A stretch of 63,382 nucleotides of DNA from Rhodanobacter sp. (GTDB lineage Bacteria; Pseudomonadota; Gammaproteobacteria; Xanthomonadales; Rhodanobacteraceae), in NCBI GenBank assembly GCA_004322005.1, contig SCRF01000016.1, forward strand, positions 1 to 63,382, written 5' to 3'. The translations under genes and the position numbers were made by a program. Shown here in pieces: positions 1,912 to 63,382 of the stretch. The notes beneath the pieces were generated by a model. That model was not told where the DNA came from, did not search any database, and was given only the letters and a program-made list of their open reading frames with translations. Every line of letters begins with the position of its first letter. The first letter of the stretch is position 1.

Positions 1912-2707
1912 CCTTGCCGCCGCCATCGCGGCGCCCCTGGCCGATGTCCAGGAGAACACCAAGATCAAGGTGCGTGACGTGCACTTCTACTACAGCGGCT
2001 TCCAGGCGCTGAAAGGCGTCAGCATGGACATCCCGGAAAAGCAGGTCACCGCCATCATCGGGCCGTCCGGTTGCGGCAAGTCCACCCTGTTGCGCATCTT
2101 CAACCGCATCTACGCGATCTATCCCAAGCTGGAGGCCACGGGCACGATCGAGCTGGACGGCGAGAACATCCTCGACCCCGGTTATTCGATGAATCGCCTG
2201 CGCAGCAAGGTCGGCATGGTGTTCCAGAAGCCGGTACCGTTTCCGATGACGATTTTCGAGAACGTGGCCTATGGCATCCGCCATCACGAAAAGCTGTCCA
2301 AACCCGTCATGGCCGATCGCGTCGAGCAGGCGCTGCGCAGCGCCGCACTGTGGGACGAGGTGAAAGACAAGCTCAAGCAGAACGCGCTCGGTCTCTCCGG
2401 TGGTCAGCAGCAGCGGCTGTGCATCGCTCGCGCCATCGCGCTGAAACCCGAGGTGCTGCTGCTGGACGAGCCGACCTCGGCGCTCGATCCGATCGCTACC
2501 AGCCGCATCGAACAATTGGTGGAGGAGCTCAAGAGCGAGTACACCATAGTCATCGTCACCCACAACATGCAGCAGGCGGCTCGCGTCTCCGATTGCACCG
2601 GCTTCATGTACATCGGCGAGCTGATCGAGTTCGGCAACACCGAAAAGATCTTCACCAAACCGGACAAGAAGCAGACCGAGGACTACATCACCGGACGTTT
2701 CGGATAA
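1904..2707 (+). CDS. pstB: Phosphate import ATP-binding protein PstB
   Basis: Cytoplasmic ATPase of the Pst importer (267 residues). Visible motifs are Walker [10 protein letters not shown] near residue 50, the ABC signature LSGGQQQRL near 165, Walker [14 protein letters not shown], and the switch histidine in IVTHNMQQA. The family-typical segment [18 protein letters not shown] is present. It overlaps the end of pstA by 8 bases. A 112-bp gap without a clear terminator separates it from phoU, which is likely co-transcribed. Confidence 0.97.
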
Positions 2708-2819
2708 TCATGGCAACACTCCCTCTGCCCTGCAGGCAGCAGTTCCCTCGGCGGAGAGATGGCCAGGGTGTGAGGCCACGTCGCCCCGCGCCCCCTACCC
2801 CAAGCATGCGAGCACCGAT

Positions 2820-3557
2820 ATGAGCAGCACCGGAAAAGACCACATCATCAAAAGCTACGACAGCGAGCTGAGCCGCCTTACCGGCGAAATCGTGCGCATG
2901 GGAGAACTGTCGGTCAGCCAGCTGGAGTCAGCGATCGACGTGATCGGTCGCCGTGACGAACGCGCTGCCCGGCGCGTAGTGGACAACGATGAAGCGATAG
3001 ACCATCTCGAACAGGAAATCAGCCATGACGTGGTGCGCCTGCTCGCCCTGCGCGCACCAATGGCCGGCGACCTGCGCAACGTGTTCGCCGCCCTGCGTAT
3101 CGCCGCCGACATCGAACGCATCGGCGACTATGCCGCCAACGTGGCCAAGCGTTCGATTCCACTGTCGATGATGCCGCCGATACCCCCGACCAAGGGCCTT
3201 GACTACCTTGCCGAACTGGCGGCTGAAGAAGTGCGCGACGTGCTGAAGGCCTATCACGAGCAGGATGCCGAGCGTGCCTACCAAGTATGGAAAGACGATG
3301 CCGAGCTGGACGAAGCCTACACCGGTTACTTCCGCCAGCTGCTCACCTACATGATGGAAGATCCGCGCAACATCACGCCCTGCACGCACCTGCTGTTCAT
3401 GGCCAAGAACATCGAACGGATTGGCGACCACGCCACCAATATCGCCGAAAGCGTGTGGTATCAGGTGCATGGTGAGCCGCTCACCAAGCAGCGCCCGAAC
3501 CGTGACCTGACCTCAAGCCCGGAGTCGGTGAATCTCGGCGACAAACCCGCCAAGTAG
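2820..3557 (+). CDS. phoU: Phosphate signalling protein PhoU
   Basis: Peripheral membrane regulator that links the Pst transporter to the PhoR sensor kinase, holding the Pho regulon off when phosphate is plentiful. The 245-residue protein shows the two tandem three-helix PhoU repeats; the paired metal-binding signatures read AADIERIGDYAANVA near residue 95 and AKNIERIGDHATNIAE near 200. It is the last gene of the pst operon; the 227 bp that follow contain no recognisable gene before the tRNA. Confidence 0.96.
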   Translation: MSSTGKDHIIKSYDSELSRLTGEIVRMGELSVSQLESAIDVIGRRDERAARRVVDNDEAIDHLEQEISHDVVRLLALRAPMAGDLRNVFAALRIAADIERIGDYAANVAKRSIPLSMMPPIPPTKGLDYLAELAAEEVRDVLKAYHEQDAERAYQVWKDDAELDEAYTGYFRQLLTYMMEDPRNITPCTHLLFMAKNIERIGDHATNIAESVWYQVHGEPLTKQRPNRDLTSSPESVNLGDKPAK

Positions 3558-3784
3558 TCACTCGATTCAGAGCCAGGTGATAGCGGCCGGCGGGAACAAG
3601 CGGCGGGCGGGCGTCACTCAGCGTTGGATCGCTGACGACGGACTACAACGGACGATACGGCGGAAATACTTGCTGCAGGCATCGTCTGATGCTCGGGCCG
3701 GTCTGAGGCAGCACCCGGGAAAATGCCGGGGCGACTGGTTTATCCAACCCCGATTTTGCCCAACCCCGATGATGAGCGCTGAAT

Positions 3785-42248: not shown

Positions 42249-42432
42249 ACGCGCATTGAAACGGACCGCTGCTTGAGCGACGCACGGCACGGACGGCACG
42301 ACAACCCGGGCATGCCGATCGACCGCCCGCGCCAGTGCGTCCTGCGCCTTGCACGCCACGCACCTCCACCGGCAGGCTGCTAGACTCGCCTCGCTGCGTC
42401 TGCCCGGCGCGCTTTCAATCCGCGGAGGGTGC

Positions 42433-43245
42433 ATGGGATTCCTGCATGGCAAACGTGCCCTGATCGTCGGCATTGCCAGTCAGCGCTCGATCGCCTGGGG
42501 CATCGCCAACGCGATGCATCGCGAGGGTGCCCAACTCGCGTTCACCTACCAGAACGACCGCTTGAAAGATCGCGTCGAGGAAGCGGCCAACGCCTTCGGC
42601 TCGAACATCGTGCTGCCTTGCGATGTCGCCGAGGACGCCCAGATCGCGCAGTTGTTCGTGGAACTTGGCCAGCACTGGAACGGTTTCGACATTCTCGTGC
42701 ACTCGGTGGGCTTCGCACCGCGCGAGGCACTGCAGGGCGGGTTCCTGGACAACCTCACCCGCGAGAACTTCGCCATCGCGCACGACATCTCCAGCTACAG
42801 CCTGGCGGCACTGGCGAAGGCGGCGCGGCCGATGATGGCGGGGCGCAACGGCGCGATCCTCACCCTGACCTATCTCGGCGCCGAACGCGCGCTGGACGGC
42901 TACAACGTGATGGGGCTGGCCAAGGCGAGTCTCGAGGCGAACGTGCGCTACCTGGCCTACAACCTCGGGCCGGAAGGCACCCGGGTCAACGCGATTTCGG
43001 CCGGGCCGATCAAGACGCTGGCCGCCGCGGGCATCTCCAATTTCCGCAGGATGCTCGATCACGTCGACGCGCATGCGCCGCTGCGCCGCAGCGTCACCAT
43101 CGACGAGGTCGGCAATGTCGGTGCGTTCCTCTGCTCCTCCCTGGCGTCGGGCGTGACCGGCGAGATCACCCATGTCGATGCCGGCTACAACATCCTGGGC
43201 ATGACCGGTATCTCAAGCGAGACGCCGCCGGTACCGGGTGCTTGA
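42433..43245 (+). CDS. fabI: Enoyl-ACP reductase FabI (NADH)
   Basis: Last step of each fatty-acid elongation cycle (270 residues). N-terminal [20 protein letters not shown], the substrate region [11 protein letters not shown], and the catalytic Y-x6-K within [19 protein letters not shown] match E. coli FabI. The ATG at 42433 follows gcggaggg. It is monocistronic; the 184 bp upstream show no gene. This is the triclosan- and isoniazid-type target enzyme class. Confidence 0.96.
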
Positions 43246-43298
43246 AACCCCCAGTGGCGAGTGTGACGATATGCCATCCCACCCAGCGGGATTCCAGC

Positions 43299-43787
43299 AT
43301 GTCCGACGACGCCTTTGAAGGTGCCTGCACCTGTGGTGACATCGAGTATCGACTGACCAGCGTACCGCTGTTCGTGCATTGCTGCCACTGCACCTGGTGC
43401 CAGCGGGAATCCGGCTCGGCGTTCGCGCTGAACGCCTTGATCGAAACGGCCCGGCTGCAACGGCTGCACGGCGAACCGGTCATGGTGAACACGCCATCGA
43501 ACAGCGGCAAGGGACAACAGGTCGCCCGCTGTCCGCGCTGCCATGTCGCGCTGTGGAGCCATTACGCCGGGGCCGGCGAGGCGTTCGCGTTCGTTCGCGT
43601 GGGCACGCTCAGGCAACCGGACCGGTTGCCACCGGACATCCACATTTTCACGTCGACCCGGCTGCCGTGGGTATCGCTCCCGGCGAACACCCCCGCGGTG
43701 GCCGAGTACTACGACCGCAATGCGTACTGGCCCGCGCAGAGCCTTGCCCGCCGCACCGCGGTGCTGGCCGGCACCACGGGCAGCTGA
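43299..43787 (+). CDS. GFA-domain (glutathione-dependent formaldehyde-activating type) protein
   Basis: 162 residues with the zinc-binding cysteines of the GFA fold: CTCGD near residue 10, HCCHCTWCQRESGSAFALNA near 30 and RCPRCHVALWSHY near 82. These proteins are often annotated as aldehyde-glutathione adduct enzymes, but most members have no tested substrate. It stands 53 bp after fabI. Confidence 0.85.
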   Translation: MSDDAFEGACTCGDIEYRLTSVPLFVHCCHCTWCQRESGSAFALNALIETARLQRLHGEPVMVNTPSNSGKGQQVARCPRCHVALWSHYAGAGEAFAFVRVGTLRQPDRLPPDIHIFTSTRLPWVSLPANTPAVAEYYDRNAYWPAQSLARRTAVLAGTTGS

Positions 43788-46966: not shown

Positions 46967-47110
46967 GGCGGGTAATGGGAGATCAACCGAGGCACAGCAG
47001 CGGAATTGCGGCCAGAATCAATCCGAAATTCATCATTTCAACGTAGCAAAGCCGGAGTTTTCGCGCGGTCGTTTGGACGGCTATTTCGAGCTCAATTGAT
47101 CAGACCATCC

Positions 47111-47632
47111 TTAGCCGTCATTTTGCAACAGCTGTTCGAACGCCGAGCGATAGTACAAGGAGAACGCGTCACGCAAGTCAGCGCGCGCTTGCGCAGACGG
47201 ACGCTGCCGCCGATTGAGTAGTGGATCGTAGGCTGTGACTGCGATATTTTCCGCTTGCGTAATTTCTGAGAAATCTTTGGACGAAAAGTACAAATCCAAA
47301 GTTGCGTCCGGAGTGGACTCAGCCAGAAAGGCGCGAAATATGCGTAATTTGTAATCGTTTGGCGAGTGGGGCTGGAACTCGCCGACGTAGTTCTGCATGC
47401 GGTATGCCATGGAGTTGGTCTTGCCGATGTAGATGCTAAACAACCGCTCGCCTTGGCGCATGATCCAGAAGTAGATGCCCGGAACCCGCTTGTACTCCGC
47501 GATGATGCGGTCAACGCGACTACACCGAGACAAGTCAGTCTCCGGCACGAGCAACGTAAAATCGGCGCGCAGTGAAGCCGCCTGCGAGGCGCTGAGCTCA
47601 AATTGGCTGAAGTCTCGCGAGAAATTTGGCAT
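47111..47632 (-). CDS. GIY-YIG-like nuclease-fold protein in a gene cassette
   Basis: 173 residues. The segment GIYFWIMRQGERLFSIYIGK, continuing TNSMAYRMQNYVGEF, is a GIY-YIG-type core, with a later glutamate in ITQAENIAVTAYDPLLN. The ATG lies 4 bases after the end of an attC-like site and has no Shine-Dalgarno sequence, as is common for cassette genes. Base composition is visibly less GC-rich than in the flanking core genes. No attC could be recognised after its stop codon. Confidence 0.6.
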   Translation of the reverse strand: MPNFSRDFSQFELSASQAASLRADFTLLVPETDLSRCSRVDRIIAEYKRVPGIYFWIMRQGERLFSIYIGKTNSMAYRMQNYVGEFQPHSPNDYKLRIFRAFLAESTPDATLDLYFSSKDFSEITQAENIAVTAYDPLLNRRQRPSAQARADLRDAFSLYYRSAFEQLLQNDG

Positions 47633-47636
47633 GACA

Positions 47637-47692
47637 GCTAGACAGTTTGAGTTAAGCGGCGGCGTAGCCGTCCGCTTGAATGACAGTTAGAC
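47637..47692 (-). other. attC-like site 1
   Basis: Minus strand: GTCTAAC (matches RYYYAAC), TGTCATTCAAGC, a hairpin AAGCGGACGGC-TAC-GCCGCCGCTT, AACTCAAACT, then a degenerate GTCTAGC. Layout and sequence closely follow the aadA-type attC (GTCTAAC...ATTCAAGC...GCTTAA.TCAAGC...GTTRRRY). It lies directly between two same-strand cassette genes. Confidence 0.65.
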
Positions 47693-47698
47693 CTATTC

Positions 47699-48058
47699 TT
47701 ACTGACAGGCCTTAAAGGCGGATAAATCCTTGCTTTTGCCACCGATGACATGGCCTCTGTAATAGTTGGTAACTGAACCACCACCTTTTTCTAAGATGTC
47801 GATAGCTATGAGCGTATTGCCCATACGCGCAACTTGAATCGAGTACCCATTTGACAAAGGCCGCACATACATTTCGCTGGAGTGGCCCTCACGCTCAAGA
47901 ACATTTGCTATGCAGTCCATGACCATTCGCGCAGCTTTCGGACTGGAGTATGACTCAACGGGCCCCTTGCTCCTTGCAGCTTGCGGAGTTGCACATGCTG
48001 AGATCGCGCAAGACATTGCGCTAATTGCCAAGAGACGATGATATTTTGATGTGAGCAC
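47699..48058 (-). CDS. Small lipoprotein in a gene cassette
   Basis: 119 residues; start GTG with ggaaa 5 bases upstream. A signal peptide with lipobox (AISAMSCAISAC, Cys near residue 22) predicts a lipid-anchored envelope protein. The mature part (ARMVMDCIANVLEREGHSSE, VRPLSNGYSIQVARMGNTLI) has no recognised domain. It is flanked by attC-like sites on both sides, so it is probably a mobile cassette. Confidence 0.6.
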   Translation of the reverse strand: MLTSKYHRLLAISAMSCAISACATPQAARSKGPVESYSSPKAARMVMDCIANVLEREGHSSEMYVRPLSNGYSIQVARMGNTLIAIDILEKGGGSVTNYYRGHVIGGKSKDLSAFKACQ

Positions 48059-57973: not shown

Positions 57974-58588
57974 ATGGTCAGCAGGCAACATTGGGAAACG
58001 GTCTACCGGACCAGGGCCGTCGACGCGGTCAGCTGGTACCGCCCGCACCTGGATACCTCGCTGGCGATGATCGAGCGGGCGGTGCCGGATCGCGACGCGT
58101 GCATCATCGACATCGGCGGCGGCGAGGCGACGCTGGTCGACGATCTGCTGGCCCGCGGCTATCGACAACTCAGCGTGCTCGACATCTCGCCCGCGGCCAT
58201 CGAGGTGGCGCGCAAGCGCCTCGGCGCTGCCGCGGCGCAGGTGACGTGGCTGGCCGACGACATCCTGCAGGTGGCGCTGCCCGCGCAGCGCTTCGACCTC
58301 TGGCACGATCGCGCGCTGTTCCATTTCCTCACCGGTGCCGAGCAGCGGGCGCGCTACGTCGAGCAGCTCGCCCGTGCGCTGAAACCGGGCGGCCACGCCA
58401 TCATCGCCACGTTCGGCCCGCAGGGACCGGGCCAATGCAGCGGACTCGACACCGTGCGCTACGACGCCGCGTCGTTGCAGCGCGAACTCGGGCCGCGCTT
58501 CGAGGTGATCGAACACACCACCGAACTGCACCGCACCCCGTTCGACACCACGCAGCAGTTCGTCTACAGCCATTGCCGCCTGGTTTGA
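57974..58588 (+). CDS. Class I SAM-dependent methyltransferase
   Basis: 204 residues. HWETVYRTRAVDAVSWYRPH at the N-terminus and the SAM motif CIIDIGGGEATLVDDLLARG, then LSVLDISPAAIEVARKRLG and LARALKPGGHAIIATFGPQG, match the small SAM methyltransferases often found beside metal or thiol resistance genes. The start follows ggagag. It may act with the His-tailed transporter; the substrate is unknown. Confidence 0.82.
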   Translation: MVSRQHWETVYRTRAVDAVSWYRPHLDTSLAMIERAVPDRDACIIDIGGGEATLVDDLLARGYRQLSVLDISPAAIEVARKRLGAAAAQVTWLADDILQVALPAQRFDLWHDRALFHFLTGAEQRARYVEQLARALKPGGHAIIATFGPQGPGQCSGLDTVRYDAASLQRELGPRFEVIEHTTELHRTPFDTTQQFVYSHCRLV

Positions 58589-59025
58589 GCGGCCGATCCG
58601 ACTGCCGTTGATGGGTGAAAATCGCCTGGTGTCAAGGCTCATGCTACCCGGCAGAGATCCGGGTTCTCGTACATCGTCCACGGCCGCGAACCCGTGTTCA
58701 ACGAATGTCCCGCACATGGTCTGCACAGCGACCGGCCCGACCATCGGCCCAAAATGGTCGGTCGCATGTGCGCTGTGCCGCCCACCGCAAAACCGGTGAG
58801 CAGCAGCGCGATACCGAGGCAAATGACGAACGAACTGTGACATCGGCAGACCGTGCTCGAACTGCACCAATTCATCGCCCTGTCCCACCTCCGCATCTAA
58901 GCTGGGTTTGCCACCCGTCCCAGTACGCCTCAAATCGCGCGACAGCCGACTGAGGTCAGCACTGATCAGGTGCATTCGTGCACTCGAGAGGCAGTGGTGA
59001 TGAATGGCAGATTGCACCTTGAGCA
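58589..59025. other. Junction region without a supported gene
   Basis: This 437-bp stretch joins GC-rich DNA to the AT-richer block. Only short or antisense frames occur. One minus-strand frame at 58639-58896 has a hydrophobic stretch (SFVICLGIALLLTGFAVGG) but no ribosome site or family resemblance; it may be a relic. Confidence 0.5.
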
Positions 59026-59358
59026 TCACTTCGAACTACGGGGAATACTTCGCAGATAAACCAGTAGCGCCTTCGCATCTTCGGCTGTCAGACTTGAGTC
59101 CCCGCCTTTTGGGGGCATCCCCATCGGTGAATCTGGTGACTGGAACCCATTCAGAATATGGCCAATCAATATCGCGTCAGGTTTTGCAAGGCGCCCGCTG
59201 GTGATCAGGTCCGGCACACCTGGAAATGCTCCTTGTGCATGATCTCCATGACAAGAGGCACAGTTTGCATCAAACAACGCCTTGCCGTCGGCGGCAAATG
59301 CCTTAGGCATCGCGATGAGCAGCGAGAATGCAGGTATGAGTAAAAGGCTGATTTTCAT
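59026..59358 (-). CDS. Small periplasmic monoheme cytochrome c
   Basis: 110 residues with signal peptide (MKISLLLIPAFSLLIAMPKA, cleavage after residue 22). The haem site is NCASCH (Cys33, Cys36, His37) and the distal methionine probably lies in SPMGMPPKGGDSSL; the C-terminal helix LTAEDAKALLVYLRSI completes a class I fold. An aggga sits 8 bases before the ATG. It is the last gene of the AT-rich cytochrome block and could be a soluble electron carrier for its partners. Confidence 0.9.
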   Translation of the reverse strand: MKISLLLIPAFSLLIAMPKAFAADGKALFDANCASCHGDHAQGAFPGVPDLITSGRLAKPDAILIGHILNGFQSPDSPMGMPPKGGDSSLTAEDAKALLVYLRSIPRSSK

Positions 59359-59534
59359 GTGTTTTAGTCCCTGGTTGAATGAAAGAACAATTGTTTTGGC
59401 GAATGCAAAGCTATATCGCGCGATATGCACAGTCTAAAGTACGGCCTATTTCTTTAGATACGCCATTCATTCGCAGACATGACGTGCAACCATGAATCAA
59501 TTGTCAGATGATCGAGAATCAATTCATCGATACG

Positions 59535-59957
59535 TCAATTATTTTTGGCTCCTTGATCGACCCATTTGCTGATCAGCCCGATGTCATGGTCCGACAACGA
59601 GCGAGCGCCGGTTCCAGGCATGATTGTTTGCTGGTGATTCTTCAAATCAAGCGAATAGTCCTTGGGCATGTTTATTGTAGCGTCTGCCTGGTGCTTGATC
59701 AGCCTGACCAAGGTACTGCCAACACTGGAACCAGGATTGATTACAGGTCCATACTTGGTTCCCTTCATCAAATCCTGATACGTAGCCACGCTGAACCCGC
59801 TTTTCAGGTAGCCTGCGCCGCCCGGAGTGTGGCAAACCGCACAATTGTTTTGCAGAATTGGGTTCACGTCACGGCTGAAGCTGACTTGTTCCCGACTGCA
59901 GGAAGCCGTGCTTAAAGCAACAAAAGACAACAAGGCAATACTTTTCAATGCGTACAT
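59535..59957 (-). CDS. Monoheme c-type cytochrome lipoprotein (PSCyt1-like)
   Basis: 140 residues. The signal ends in a lipobox-like LSTASC (Cys20), so the protein is probably lipid-anchored. The haem motif NNCAVCH (Cys39, Cys42, His43) lies in VSFSRDVNPILQNNCAVCHT, the pattern of planctomycete-type cytochrome C domains, followed by STLVRLIKHQADATINMPKD and ALSDHDIG-like C-terminal helix (LSDHDIGLISKWVDQGAKN). A strong aaggag precedes the ATG. Confidence 0.88.
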   Translation of the reverse strand: MYALKSIALLSFVALSTASCSREQVSFSRDVNPILQNNCAVCHTPGGAGYLKSGFSVATYQDLMKGTKYGPVINPGSSVGSTLVRLIKHQADATINMPKDYSLDLKNHQQTIMPGTGARSLSDHDIGLISKWVDQGAKNN

Positions 59958-60150
59958 GTCTTACTCCTTAAATGATGAAGCAATACCATCAAACATTTGC
60001 CGAATGGGGCAGCAATCAATTTTAAGTAACCACCCAAGCTGCTGCCTTGAACCATTATGTAAATCATCTTCGTGAATTAGCTAAATACCCGAACAGACGA
60101 AATACGCATGGTTACTTGCAAATAATCTGATTGTCCATGATAAGGACTAG

Positions 60151-61269
60151 TCAAATCACCTCCTCTTCTTGCCGGCTATAAGTTAGGAATATAATCTGGT
60201 AAAGCGAAACAAAGATTTGAAACGCCCAGGAAAGTCCCATCACAGAACCAGCCACCAATACCGTATAGGCGAATATCGGATCCCACTTTGTCAGAAACCA
60301 TGTGGCGATATCAATTACCACTGCACCGAATGGGGCAACAATTACCACATTCTTCAACCACGCAGGAAGCTCAGTAAAAGTAAATACGAAACCAAGAACA
60401 AACGTCACCAAGCCGATACCGAATAGATGGATATGTGAAAGCTTCACCAAGGTTTGGATAGACATACCCGTGTCAACTTTTGCGACAGCGCGGATACCGG
60501 CATACGTTGTGAAATCAGGCAGATTCATTCCTGATTTTGAACTATGACAGCGGGCGCATTTTTGCTCGATGATAGGATGTATGGTTTTGTCGTAACCAGC
60601 TTCATCCGCACCAGATTTCAACCATGCAACAATTTTGGCAAGATCATCTTCACTTCTCATACCAGACATCGGGCCTCGCAACATCTGTTCAAGCCGTGTC
60701 CCGCTACGATTTCCGTAATACGTGATCGCAAGATCCTGTACGGACACACCCGATTTTCCGTCGAGGCCGGAATGGGTCATGTAGAGATACCCAATCGCCA
60801 TGGCATAACCAAGACCAAGAACGACCAGCACAAGCCCGTACAAGGTGCGTTCACTACTGGAACACTCGCGAAACGTCCTTCCTTTCACAGTCCTGCGATT
60901 TTTTGGCAAACGTCCAAAGACACGCCGTATCCATACAAATGCAATAAAAAGACCGACAGTGCCGATCAGCACGTGGATTATTGACATCTCCTTTTGGGTA
61001 AATGACAGTGTATCTGGAGCCAGTAGTATCCATAGATCGAGCAAAGCAAACGCCCAGGCTGGCCAATAATCATGGCGCCGTATTAACGCAATGATGGCCA
61101 CAGCTACGATGAGGCTGCCCGTAATAACGCAGTTCCAAAATCCATCAACATGGGTTGTTGCCTGTGGCCCGTAGACATACCATGGCATCAACATCATCAT
61201 GAACCCGATTATCAATGCAGACAATCTGGCTGACGTTTTTCCTTTGTAATCTTTATCGCGGCTTAGCAT
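60151..61269 (-). CDS. Membrane protein joining an SPW-type domain to a c-haem domain
   Basis: 372 residues. Residues 15-115 hold four hydrophobic segments with SPW-repeat character (MMLMPWYVYG, FWNCVITGSLIVAVA, FALLDLWILLAPDTLSF, VLIGTVGLFIAFVWI). A fifth helix (142-163) leads to a periplasmic region with one haem motif CARCH (Cys238, Cys241, His242). Four further helices (about 279-360) follow, the first carrying KLSHIHLFGIG, whose histidines could bind a b-type haem. AGGTGA lies 6 bases before the ATG. I know no characterised protein with this architecture; an inner-membrane redox link is inferred. Confidence 0.75.
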   Translation of the reverse strand: MLSRDKDYKGKTSARLSALIIGFMMMLMPWYVYGPQATTHVDGFWNCVITGSLIVAVAIIALIRRHDYWPAWAFALLDLWILLAPDTLSFTQKEMSIIHVLIGTVGLFIAFVWIRRVFGRLPKNRRTVKGRTFRECSSSERTLYGLVLVVLGLGYAMAIGYLYMTHSGLDGKSGVSVQDLAITYYGNRSGTRLEQMLRGPMSGMRSEDDLAKIVAWLKSGADEAGYDKTIHPIIEQKCARCHSSKSGMNLPDFTTYAGIRAVAKVDTGMSIQTLVKLSHIHLFGIGLVTFVLGFVFTFTELPAWLKNVVIVAPFGAVVIDIATWFLTKWDPIFAYTVLVAGSVMGLSWAFQIFVSLYQIIFLTYSRQEEEVI

Positions 61270-61405
61270 GATAATTCACCTGTTCATTGATTTTTACAAG
61301 CCTGAAGCGAATTTTGTTTCATCCCATTTAAACCGCTTGCTCGTGTTGGAAATGGCTTTCTTGCTAATGTACGATGCTTCGGCGCTCATGCCGCCAGGTC
61401 TCTGC

Positions 61406-61437
61406 CAGCCATTCCGAATAAATCCGGAATGGCTGGT
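61406..61437. other. 12-bp perfect hairpin between the cytochrome-porin and membrane cytochrome genes
   Basis: ccagccattccg (61406-61417) and cggaatggctgg (61426-61437) around an 8-base AT-rich loop. No T run follows in either direction, so it may protect or process the upstream mRNA. The rest of the 263-bp gap has no gene. Confidence 0.6.
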
Positions 61438-61532
61438 TATTCGGCAGGTCACCATCCTATACGCTGATTCATGGTTTGACTGGCGTTTTATGACTTATCG
61501 TGCTCACCGAAGTCCACGTTTCGCACATCGGC

Positions 61533-62876
61533 TCAGAACAGGTAACTCTGAAAAACAAGGTACAGGGTATTGTTATCACTTGCGTGACTCGTGGTTCCGT
61601 TGAACTTTGTGTAGAAGGTGTACTGGAGCCCAACTCTCAGGTTCAAATAGGGTTCTGCCCAGCTGTCACCTTTGCCAAACGGAACCCAATTCAACTCAAT
61701 GGATCCACCGTTGGTATTGGGGGAGTCATTCGCAGAACTAGCAGAGTAAAGCAAGGAATCCCGGTTACCACTGGTAGTGAACGCACCTACAGTGACTCCG
61801 TAAGTGTTTTTGTAATAATAGTTTGCGTTCATATTCAAGGAACTGAGGTGATTGTGCAGGTTTGAGGCATTACCCGCCGCGTAGCTATTGTTCAGAGTTT
61901 GTGTTTCGTACAAATACTGCCCCTGCACCGTGACAGCGTGCTTGCTCCCACTAAACCACTCATAGCTTGCATCCAGTCCGTAGTCCTTATAGTCGTCCGA
62001 CCCCGGACCCATGCTACCCATCGGATGCAGCTTTGGCTCGAAATACAGGGCACCAACCTCCAGATTACTGCTGGAACTTGGACTGGCCTGGTATGCCATC
62101 CGCAGGTAAGGGGCAGGGACGTCAAGACGCCCGGGATACATGCCGTTGACATGATCAATGAAGGATTTTGATGGGACCTTGTATGCCCCTGCTTCGATAT
62201 ACCATTTGCCGTCAACCTGGGTATATGCCGTCAGACCCAGAACGCCGTTCATAAATCCGCCGTTGATGATCGGGCTGGCAACGGCTCCAGGCGCTAGATC
62301 GGGACCAAAGTAAGGATATTGCCAGGCGGGACCCGTGTTGTAGATATCGCTAATGGTCGGGTTATTGTTGACAGTGAGACCCCATACCGCTGTATGCGAT
62401 CCAAGCTTCGCGGTGCGTGCATAGCGAATGTCGGTCATATCCCATCCTGCGGTGTGCCCATTCTGTGAATAAGCCACCTGCATGAACATACCCATATGAT
62501 CGGAAATAGCACCAGCAAGATACATACCCGCTGTCTGGAATTCCCAATTATCATTACTGCCGAATCCAGGTGCTGCAGGTCCGGACTGGTCCTTTTGGGT
62601 ATGCGTGAATGATTCAACTAGCTCTAACGAAACCTTCGGGGTAAAACCCGAACTGGCGGTCTTCATGGTGTATCCGGTTAGTTTGAACTGACGTCCAAAC
62701 GGAGTCAGTTGCGGTCCGAAACCACCGACATGACATGAGGTACAAGGCATGTTGACTTGCCGAGAAAATGCCGGAATGGCTCTTGCTTGAGGAACAAATC
62801 CAGCTATCACCATTGCTATCAAAGACAATAGTGGCCACGTTAGTTTTGAACTTGTTGACAGGATTATCTTTTTCAC
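61533..62876 (-). CDS. Cyc2-like fused cytochrome c / outer-membrane barrel
   Basis: 447 residues from GTG with GGGAG 7 bases upstream. A signal peptide (cleavage after QARA, residue 33) is followed at once by IPAFSRQVNMPCTSCHVGGF (haem Cys45, Cys48, His49) and GPQLTPFGRQFKLTGYTM, the layout of Cyc2 and related cytochrome-porins. The remaining 370 residues alternate short amphipathic strands and turns and end LYLVFQSYLF, with the C-terminal aromatic of outer-membrane barrels. Cyc2 in Fe(II) oxidisers takes electrons from outside the cell. Whether this one oxidises iron is not shown; related barrels of unknown role share the motif. Confidence 0.72.
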   Translation of the reverse strand: MKKIILSTSSKLTWPLLSLIAMVIAGFVPQARAIPAFSRQVNMPCTSCHVGGFGPQLTPFGRQFKLTGYTMKTASSGFTPKVSLELVESFTHTQKDQSGPAAPGFGSNDNWEFQTAGMYLAGAISDHMGMFMQVAYSQNGHTAGWDMTDIRYARTAKLGSHTAVWGLTVNNNPTISDIYNTGPAWQYPYFGPDLAPGAVASPIINGGFMNGVLGLTAYTQVDGKWYIEAGAYKVPSKSFIDHVNGMYPGRLDVPAPYLRMAYQASPSSSSNLEVGALYFEPKLHPMGSMGPGSDDYKDYGLDASYEWFSGSKHAVTVQGQYLYETQTLNNSYAAGNASNLHNHLSSLNMNANYYYKNTYGVTVGAFTTSGNRDSLLYSASSANDSPNTNGGSIELNWVPFGKGDSWAEPYLNLRVGLQYTFYTKFNGTTSHASDNNTLYLVFQSYLF

Positions 62877-63021
62877 GTTGTATCTCCCTTGTTAGCGACT
62901 AAAAGATGAATTTTTGTGTGCCACCGTTTTCCTTAAGATATTGCTCCATGGAAATGAGTTGATTGAATAAATGGCTGTTTCCATCGGCGTGACTAATCTT
63001 CTTATGGAAAGCGTCAGTGAC

Positions 63022-63382
63022 TTAACCTGTGTGGTACTGGAGGGTTTCGACGTTACGGATAGCGATCGCGTGAGCAGAATCCGGATCACTCAGGCGTTGA
63101 CCTTGGCTGTAACCGGCTTGCTTGAACTTGCTGACACGCGGGCGCACAGATGCTGTGACCAGCACGTTTCGCTGATTGCCACCGAAAGAGATGCCGTCCG
63201 AAAACTGCGCAGAAGTTATGCACTCTGTAGTTTCGAAGTGGCTAATGGCCTTGGCAAACCCCAAGGTGGCTGCCGTTGCGACAACCTTCGCCTGAATTTC
63301 GACGGTATACGCCGTCAGAGCCACAGCAATGACTGCTGCGACGATCAAAGTTAGCCCACGCGTCTTGAGAGAGGAAGTCGAG
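63022..63382 (-). CDS. Short protein with one N-terminal helix, 5' end outside the window
   Basis: The frame stays open to the window edge, and the visible part is about 119 residues. It begins STSSLKTRGLTLIVAAVIAV then ALTAYTVEIQAKVV, which looks like a prepilin N-terminus (KxRG|xTLI) but lacks the usual glutamate at mature position 5. The rest (ISHFETTECITSAQFSDGIS, GGNQRNVLVTASVRPRVSKF) matches nothing I recognise. A TTG at 63348 could also be the start. It is on the same strand as the cytochrome genes and 145 bp upstream of the cytochrome-porin. Confidence 0.4.
   Translation of the reverse strand, partial: STSSLKTRGLTLIVAAVIAVALTAYTVEIQAKVVATAATLGFAKAISHFETTECITSAQFSDGISFGGNQRNVLVTASVRPRVSKFKQAGYSQGQRLSDPDSAHAIAIRNVETLQYHTG

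Follow-up and report, generated by a model that had tools for sequence, protein, structure and literature searches.

A Cyc2-type cytochrome-porin and a recurring inner-membrane cytochrome pair in an A+T-rich block of Rhodanobacter: a candidate route for extracellular electrons

The right-hand end of contig SCRF01000016.1 of Rhodanobacter sp. (assembly GCA_004322005.1), which was analysed over its whole length of 63 382 nucleotides (nt) and is called the window here, carries an A+T-rich block of four genes for cytochromes with a single CxxCH haem motif: a Cyc2-family cytochrome-porin (PCY), a predicted inner-membrane cytochrome (IMC) and two small cytochromes (LIP and SOL). Sequence comparison establishes the relationship of PCY to Cyc2, the gene order and the sharing of the IMC-LIP pair between different conduits. 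The block is read as encoding an electron route from the cell exterior to the inner membrane, most likely from Fe(II), with IMC-LIP as a shared adaptor, and a probability of about 0.6 is assigned to this reading. Cyc2 homologues were published for Rhodanobacter of culture KS (PMC5566968) and for Rhodanobacteraceae (PMC10654088), and Cyc2- and MtoAB-like proteins were reported from an enrichment, for its Rhodanobacter as well as its Gallionellaceae (PMC11366258). The occurrence of Cyc2 in Rhodanobacter is known already; what is new is what stands behind PCY, the IMC-LIP partners.

Over nearly its full length PCY was aligned with a Cyc2-like protein encoded in a rusticyanin-type operon (30% identity; E 5e-56 as a single-comparison value, the BLASTP cut-off for Cyc2 being 1E-5). 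In this reference operon, rusticyanin scored 136.4 bits (cut-off 146.7), coxA, coxB and ctaA fell below their cut-offs, ctaB exceeded its own, and no dihaem cyc1 was called alongside. Published Cyc2 proteins are defined by a length of at least 365 amino acids (aa) plus a haem-binding site (PMC8406198). The 447 aa of PCY comprise, in this order, a likely signal peptide, AIPAFSRQV-NMP-CTSCH (the single haem motif, residues 45-49), PQL and a modelled 16-strand porin. PQL lies five residues past the haem histidine, the spacing published for PXL being four (PMC8406198), and P.L was found 3-6 residues from CxxCH in all 54 rows of alignment A1 (the query and 53 of 120 listed homologues). The barrel and an outer-membrane location are predictions from the model, for which the highest-ranking PDB entry is the one reported as the top entry for the Acidithiobacillus protein AfCyc2. 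An earlier note on this DNA had taken the 447-residue protein for a Cyc2-like barrel fusion and had proposed structure prediction as a check; the near full-length homology agrees with it, and the model does contain the barrel.

The surroundings of IMC were compared in 100 related genomes, the own genome included. IMC-like frames occurred in 10 of these, and long-form IMC genes at ten loci in nine genomes of one genus. Counts of LIP, SOL and MtoD were made with tblastn, because the frame picker overlooks genes (it overlooked LIP on own contig C78). LIP followed IMC at 10/10 loci, and a porin-cytochrome conduit preceded the pair at eight: a Cyc2-like gene at three (window, G040 and G014) and MtoD-MtoA-MtrB at five (C78 of the own genome, G000, as well as G036, G010, G043 and G019). 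Contig C78 carries genes for MtoD-like, decahaem MtoA-like and MtrB/PioB proteins, then IMC (63% identical to that of the block) and LIP (66%); its conduit is of the MtoAB/PioAB type by a PF11854 match (E 1.1e-114 over 784 aa) and a neighbour with ten CxxCH motifs. This second setting of the pair, behind a decahaem conduit in the same genome, lay beyond the view of the earlier note and is considered the most informative fact; because of it, IMC-LIP is taken as a common inner-membrane adaptor. MtoD was present at 5/5 MtoAB loci and at none of the other five long-form loci. For SOL, matches came from the window, from G040 and G037 and, more weakly (39%), from G014; the MtoAB loci gave none. IMC-LIP would accordingly be the constant part, served by SOL behind a Cyc2 conduit and by MtoD behind an MtoAB conduit.

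As a control, MtrB-family matches were counted and found in 47 of the 100 relatives. Within the genus, all five MtrB-family frames of 782-797 aa stood beside IMC. Another 18 genomes of the genus had strong MtrB-family matches only in frames of at least 871 aa, and 17 of them lacked any IMC match; in the eighteenth, G040, the large frame and IMC lie ~470 kb apart. In a tree of 48 IMC rows, with gene context known for 10, the MtoAB-linked copies formed one group (14 rows, support 100/100), a second group, of 12 rows, took in those of the window and G040, and the copy of G014, which is Cyc2-linked, fell outside both, a split that fits re-pairing of the IMC-LIP module. The earlier note had suggested a search for the same block elsewhere: G040 carries the four genes in the same order (identities 80, 75, 69 and 58%) and equally A+T-rich, and G014 repeats PCY-IMC-LIP. 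The block had been described there as having five genes; four were counted, with no convincing fifth seen in 62877-63382, between PCY and the contig end. G037 has its PCY gene on one contig and IMC-LIP-SOL on another. The PCY relative of that genome (L032:9014-10447) is split over frames and followed by an apparent fragment of another copy and by transposase-like genes. Beside its IMC-LIP genes stands a haem-free 445-aa frame (L062:11996-13333) with a coiled-coil-like start, a barrel-like body as judged by eye and no Pfam match, which is possibly a third kind of IMC-LIP partner.

A wider sample of 369 genomes of the class contained IMC relatives in 63 (seven of them weak), nearly all of which, outside the own genome, covered only the part behind the SPW repeat, and PCY relatives in 59. 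Both occurred together in 19 genomes, compared with ~10 expected (own genome excluded; Fisher p 0.0009, a value that treats related genomes as independent), and they lay within 5 kb of each other in four of the 19, compared with 0.11 expected under random placement. These four loci were chosen because both searches placed the genes close together. Of the 20 class stretches fetched, 18 yielded an IMC frame to the frame picker, L131 and L143 being the exceptions.

Residues 18-110 of IMC match the SPW repeat (PF03779; 38.1 bits, cut-off 31.5), for which the C78 paralogue scored 28.0 bits, below the cut-off; behind this part lies a monohaem membrane domain (PF27139, precomputed on its relatives). 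The CxxCH motif was kept in 120/120 homologues among the matches listed. In the model, four helices and a fifth are followed by a loop of ~100 residues with the CARCH motif, between helices 5 and 6, and by three further helices. The loops of the first half that are putatively cytoplasmic carry 4, 2 and 7 Lys+Arg residues, whereas the two short loops that face them have none, a distribution by which the haem loop would be periplasmic. The charges of the C-terminal loops are uninformative for topology, and both the topology and the inner-membrane location of IMC are predictions. Besides the haem motif, C136, Y155, M157, H279 and H281 were among the columns invariant in 58 rows (alignment A2: the query and 57 of 120 listed homologues). 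The searches returned neither a solved relative nor a confident fold for IMC, and PF03264 (NapC/NirT) gave no match at E 1, only one CxxCH being present. A kinship with subunit I of haem-copper oxidases was rejected: hhalign of A2 with the longest frame at each of the three COX1 loci of the own genome gave probabilities of <1%, and the HxH pair (H279, H281), invariant in 58/58 rows, merely resembles COX1 helices. Elsewhere, a PF27139 cytochrome was seen fused to the FMN-binding domain PF04205 (P0191, P0202 and P0234), and P0202 is named subunit C of a Na+-transporting NADH:ubiquinone oxidoreductase by one source.

LIP matched PSCyt1 (27.0 bits, cut-off 22) and Cytochrom_C (22.5 bits, cut-off 21.3); on the strength of an atypical lipobox (TASC), recognised by eye, it may be a lipoprotein. 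For SOL a start at the Met of residue 25 (~59358) is likelier than the one called, which would give a product of ~110 aa, likely soluble and exported. The spacings between the four genes are 104, 193 and 263 nt. Coordinates are collected in the table.

Table. Features of the contig end (positions in the window).
Feature	Position	Strand	Description
PCY	61533-62876	-	Cyc2-family cytochrome-porin, 447 aa, GTG start
IMC	60151-61269	-	Predicted eight-helix inner-membrane monohaem cytochrome, 372 aa
LIP	59535-59957	-	Monohaem cytochrome c, 140 aa, possible lipoprotein
SOL	59026-59430	-	Small class I monohaem cytochrome c, 134 aa as called
A+T-rich block	59026-63382		48.3% G+C, reaching the contig end
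End of similarity to relatives	58567-58589		3' end of methyltransferase gene

Frames of at least 100 aa with a CxxCH motif numbered five among the 51 called in the window. Four are the block genes, all on the minus strand (the earlier note had put the four on one strand); the fifth (42429-43787) matches the formaldehyde-activating enzyme family. The note had also called the block poor in G+C, and its count of 21 G or C among 60 bases at 59941-60000 was reproduced. The G+C content is 0.483 in the block and 0.651 on average in 1-kb tiles of positions 1-59000 (standard deviation 0.034, minimum 0.522), that is, 48% versus 65% in the rest of the window. The minimum marks a second dip at 47001-48000, where a frame of 173 aa (47111-47632) is possibly another acquired gene.

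In the scheme that we infer for donor, direction of flow, order of carriers, location in the cell and acceptor of IMC, Fe(II) would enter the PCY barrel and reduce the haem plug, the electron would cross the periplasm on SOL, LIP or both, and IMC would take it up at its periplasmic haem and hand it to the respiratory chain, either to an oxidase directly or by way of quinone and bc1. Of the complete path from outer barrel to inner membrane put forward in the earlier note, the outer part is upheld by the homology and modelled barrel of PCY; its completeness is conjectural, as is the onward link from IMC to quinone, bc1 or an oxidase. The own genome encodes three COX1-family frames and the large subunit of RuBisCO, which, as read from the DNA, appears to be form I with cbbS and cbbX adjacent. 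A second decahaem-MtrB pair lies on contig C33 (L164:2-2389, a barrel cut by the contig end, and 2429-3565, with ten haems); no IMC match was found on that contig, which holds a third outer-membrane conduit locus of the genome. Searches of the genome returned no match for rusticyanin and, for a NapC/NirT tetrahaem cytochrome of the CymA/ImoA type, only a partial match inside a 10-haem frame, absences that are not proof since the genome is 96% complete.

With the rus operon of Acidithiobacillus (Cyc2 cluster 2: cyc2-cyc1-cup-coxBACD-rus) the block shares near full-length Cyc2-like homology, the single-haem N-terminus and the modelled porin, but on the readable side of PCY it has IMC, LIP and SOL and no rusticyanin, Cyc1-c4 or cox genes; nothing is readable on the right because the window, being the whole contig, ends at 63382. 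The MtoAB/MtoD system with ImoA/CymA of Sideroxydans lithotrophicus ES-1 likewise has genes for a periplasmic monohaem carrier and for a cytochrome of the inner membrane next to those of the conduit, but ImoA is a tetrahaem NapC/NirT-family protein with a transmembrane anchor (PMC13390432), whereas IMC has a single haem motif, an SPW repeat and, by prediction, eight helices. In the Gallionellaceae of culture KS, MtoAB is followed by three cytochromes, two of them small and one of the inner membrane (Cytc1-Cytc2-Cytbc; PMC5566968); Cytbc is described as a cytochrome b561 fused to a dihaem part, whereas IMC has one CxxCH and no such Pfam match. The ircABCD genes (Slit_1321-1324) also combine inner-membrane and periplasmic cytochromes, which rise with Fe(II) oxidation (PMC12442390, PMC10734462); their inner protein is described as b-type with a dihaem partner and is set apart from IMC by this description only. 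The statement of the earlier note that the partners differ from the rus and Mto systems therefore holds, in that the genome gave no rusticyanin match and the set is not that of MtoD and CymA/ImoA as described in print. No paper was found in the open-licence PMC literature that names an SPW/PF27139 membrane cytochrome in an extracellular electron role.

Acquisition of the block by transfer, likewise proposed earlier, is supported by the PCY tree, by base composition and by the insertion sequence (IS) flanks in a relative. The tree held 52 rows; of the 18 class loci offered, L120 was left out (no frame passed the filter). The window protein was sister to one labelled Sulfuriferula sp. (100/99), and both fell into a group of seven with the same-genus proteins of G014 and G040 (100/100). 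A second Cyc2-like copy of the own genome (contig C14, L008:11872-13254), 53% identical to PCY and with no IMC alongside, fell into a separate clade of 16 rows with other Rhodanobacteraceae copies; seven other copies from the genus or family, at 47-52% identity, belong to that clade. No IMC match was obtained in the 14 stretches scanned around PCY copies of 43-52% identity. In G040 the block lies inside a 3.99-Mb contig, flanked at either end by transposase-family genes; another such gene separates LIP from SOL. The window ceases to resemble its relatives at 58567-58571, where a methyltransferase gene ends; behind the 3' end of this gene the cargo differs in each of three relatives (L178, L179 and L180). 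As read from sequence, that of G021 encodes a protein of the resistance-nodulation-division (RND) efflux type and that of G014 a MerR-like regulator with efflux proteins; that of G023 begins with an A+T-rich, SOL-like cytochrome. The simplest reading is that the block was transferred into this variable site. For isolates of Sulfuriferula a G+C content of 55-58.7% is given (PMC12285272), and the genus is therefore not shown as donor.

Several observations weigh against an Fe(II) route with IMC-LIP as adaptor. We know of no experiment on any gene of the block. The AIPAFSRQV motif of PCY departs at two fixed positions from the consensus AXPXFAR[Q/K][T/Y], which is complete in 31 of the 54 aligned rows and from which AVPAFARQL of the rusticyanin-type reference departs at the last position. 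In the PCY model the predicted local distance difference test (pLDDT) value is <50 for the haem region, and the IMC model has a predicted template modelling (pTM) score of 0.47. Neither Cyc2 nor MtoAB stands beside IMC-LIP in G023, nor in G037, where the neighbours are the haem-free frame and a dihaem cytochrome. Ten long-form loci from nine genomes of one genus amount to few independent events. In the class sample, 30 of the 59 genomes with PCY relatives had weak matches only, mostly to the N-terminal haem region, as had two of the four near pairs (G298 and G392; N-terminal only). Short PF27139 cytochromes stand near genes for 2-oxoacid:ferredoxin oxidoreductase (POR) at three annotated loci (L129:12220-15130, L132:10571-12435 and L133:7395-8117); given this, which hints at another role for the family, and its wide spread, the core domain is of broader use than extracellular electron transfer alone. 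A methyltransferase gene was seen upstream in L129 and L133. The Sulfuriferula label is a database name on metagenome-assembled records. A Rhodanobacter isolate of culture KS, not known to carry the block, failed to oxidise Fe(II) alone (PMC11366258).

The KS isolate also speaks for the alternative that the conduit is real and its physiological donor is another reduced metal, a mineral, a humic substance or a partner cell. Cyc2 homologues occur in many bacteria not known as Fe(II) oxidisers, for which other extracellular roles were raised (PMC5566968), and the function of distant homologues needs verification according to Keffer et al. (PMC8406198). Each of three Cyc2 clusters, however, has a representative that showed Fe(II) oxidase activity when tested (PMC8406198), the nearest PCY homologue is labelled with a genus that has Fe(II)-grown isolates, and PCY aligns to a protein of a rusticyanin-type operon, so that another donor is judged unlikely.

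Rather less probable is that PCY acts alone with soluble carriers and the bc1 and oxidase of the host, IMC, LIP and SOL being fellow travellers for other redox routes. The breadth of the short IMC family, with its three POR loci, and the separate contigs of G037 would suit such an arrangement; the constancy of LIP behind IMC (10/10) and of a conduit ahead of the pair (8/10), the four near pairs in the class against 0.11 by chance placement and the failure to find a CymA/ImoA-type tetrahaem cytochrome in the own genome argue against it. Outward flow, in which the module would pass electrons out of the cell to an acceptor such as Fe(III), has a precedent in the Shewanella MtrAB homologues, which serve Fe(III) reduction (PMC5566968), and direction cannot be given by sequence; it appears improbable, since those Cyc2 proteins that were tested oxidise Fe(II) (PMC8406198), the block lacks an extracellular multihaem gene and the RuBisCO of the genome fits electron uptake. 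An assembly chimera with another organism, to which the position at the end of one of the 136 contigs of the assembly, the sharp change in composition and the foreign genus name of the top PCY homologue might point, is very improbable in view of the equally A+T-rich block of the same order inside the 3.99-Mb contig of same-genus G040, of PCY-IMC-LIP in G014 and of the IMC and LIP paralogues on another contig of the own genome.

The route from outer-membrane iron oxidases into the inner membrane is still under revision, even in Sideroxydans (PMC13390432, PMC12442390), and a constant pair behind a changing conduit is a concrete candidate for the step from the outer to the inner membrane. Tentatively, and at somewhat less than even odds, IMC-LIP may be a portable, hitherto unnamed entry port for both Cyc2 and MtoAB within one cell, each with a carrier of its own (SOL or MtoD), that replaces CymA/ImoA and rusticyanin-Cyc1. 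Iron-oxidising bacteria would then have a third kind of inner-membrane step, such an adaptor would explain how different iron oxidases are swapped by transfer, and the presence of IMC-LIP would help to judge which of the many physiologically uncharacterised carriers of Cyc2 are wired for electron uptake.

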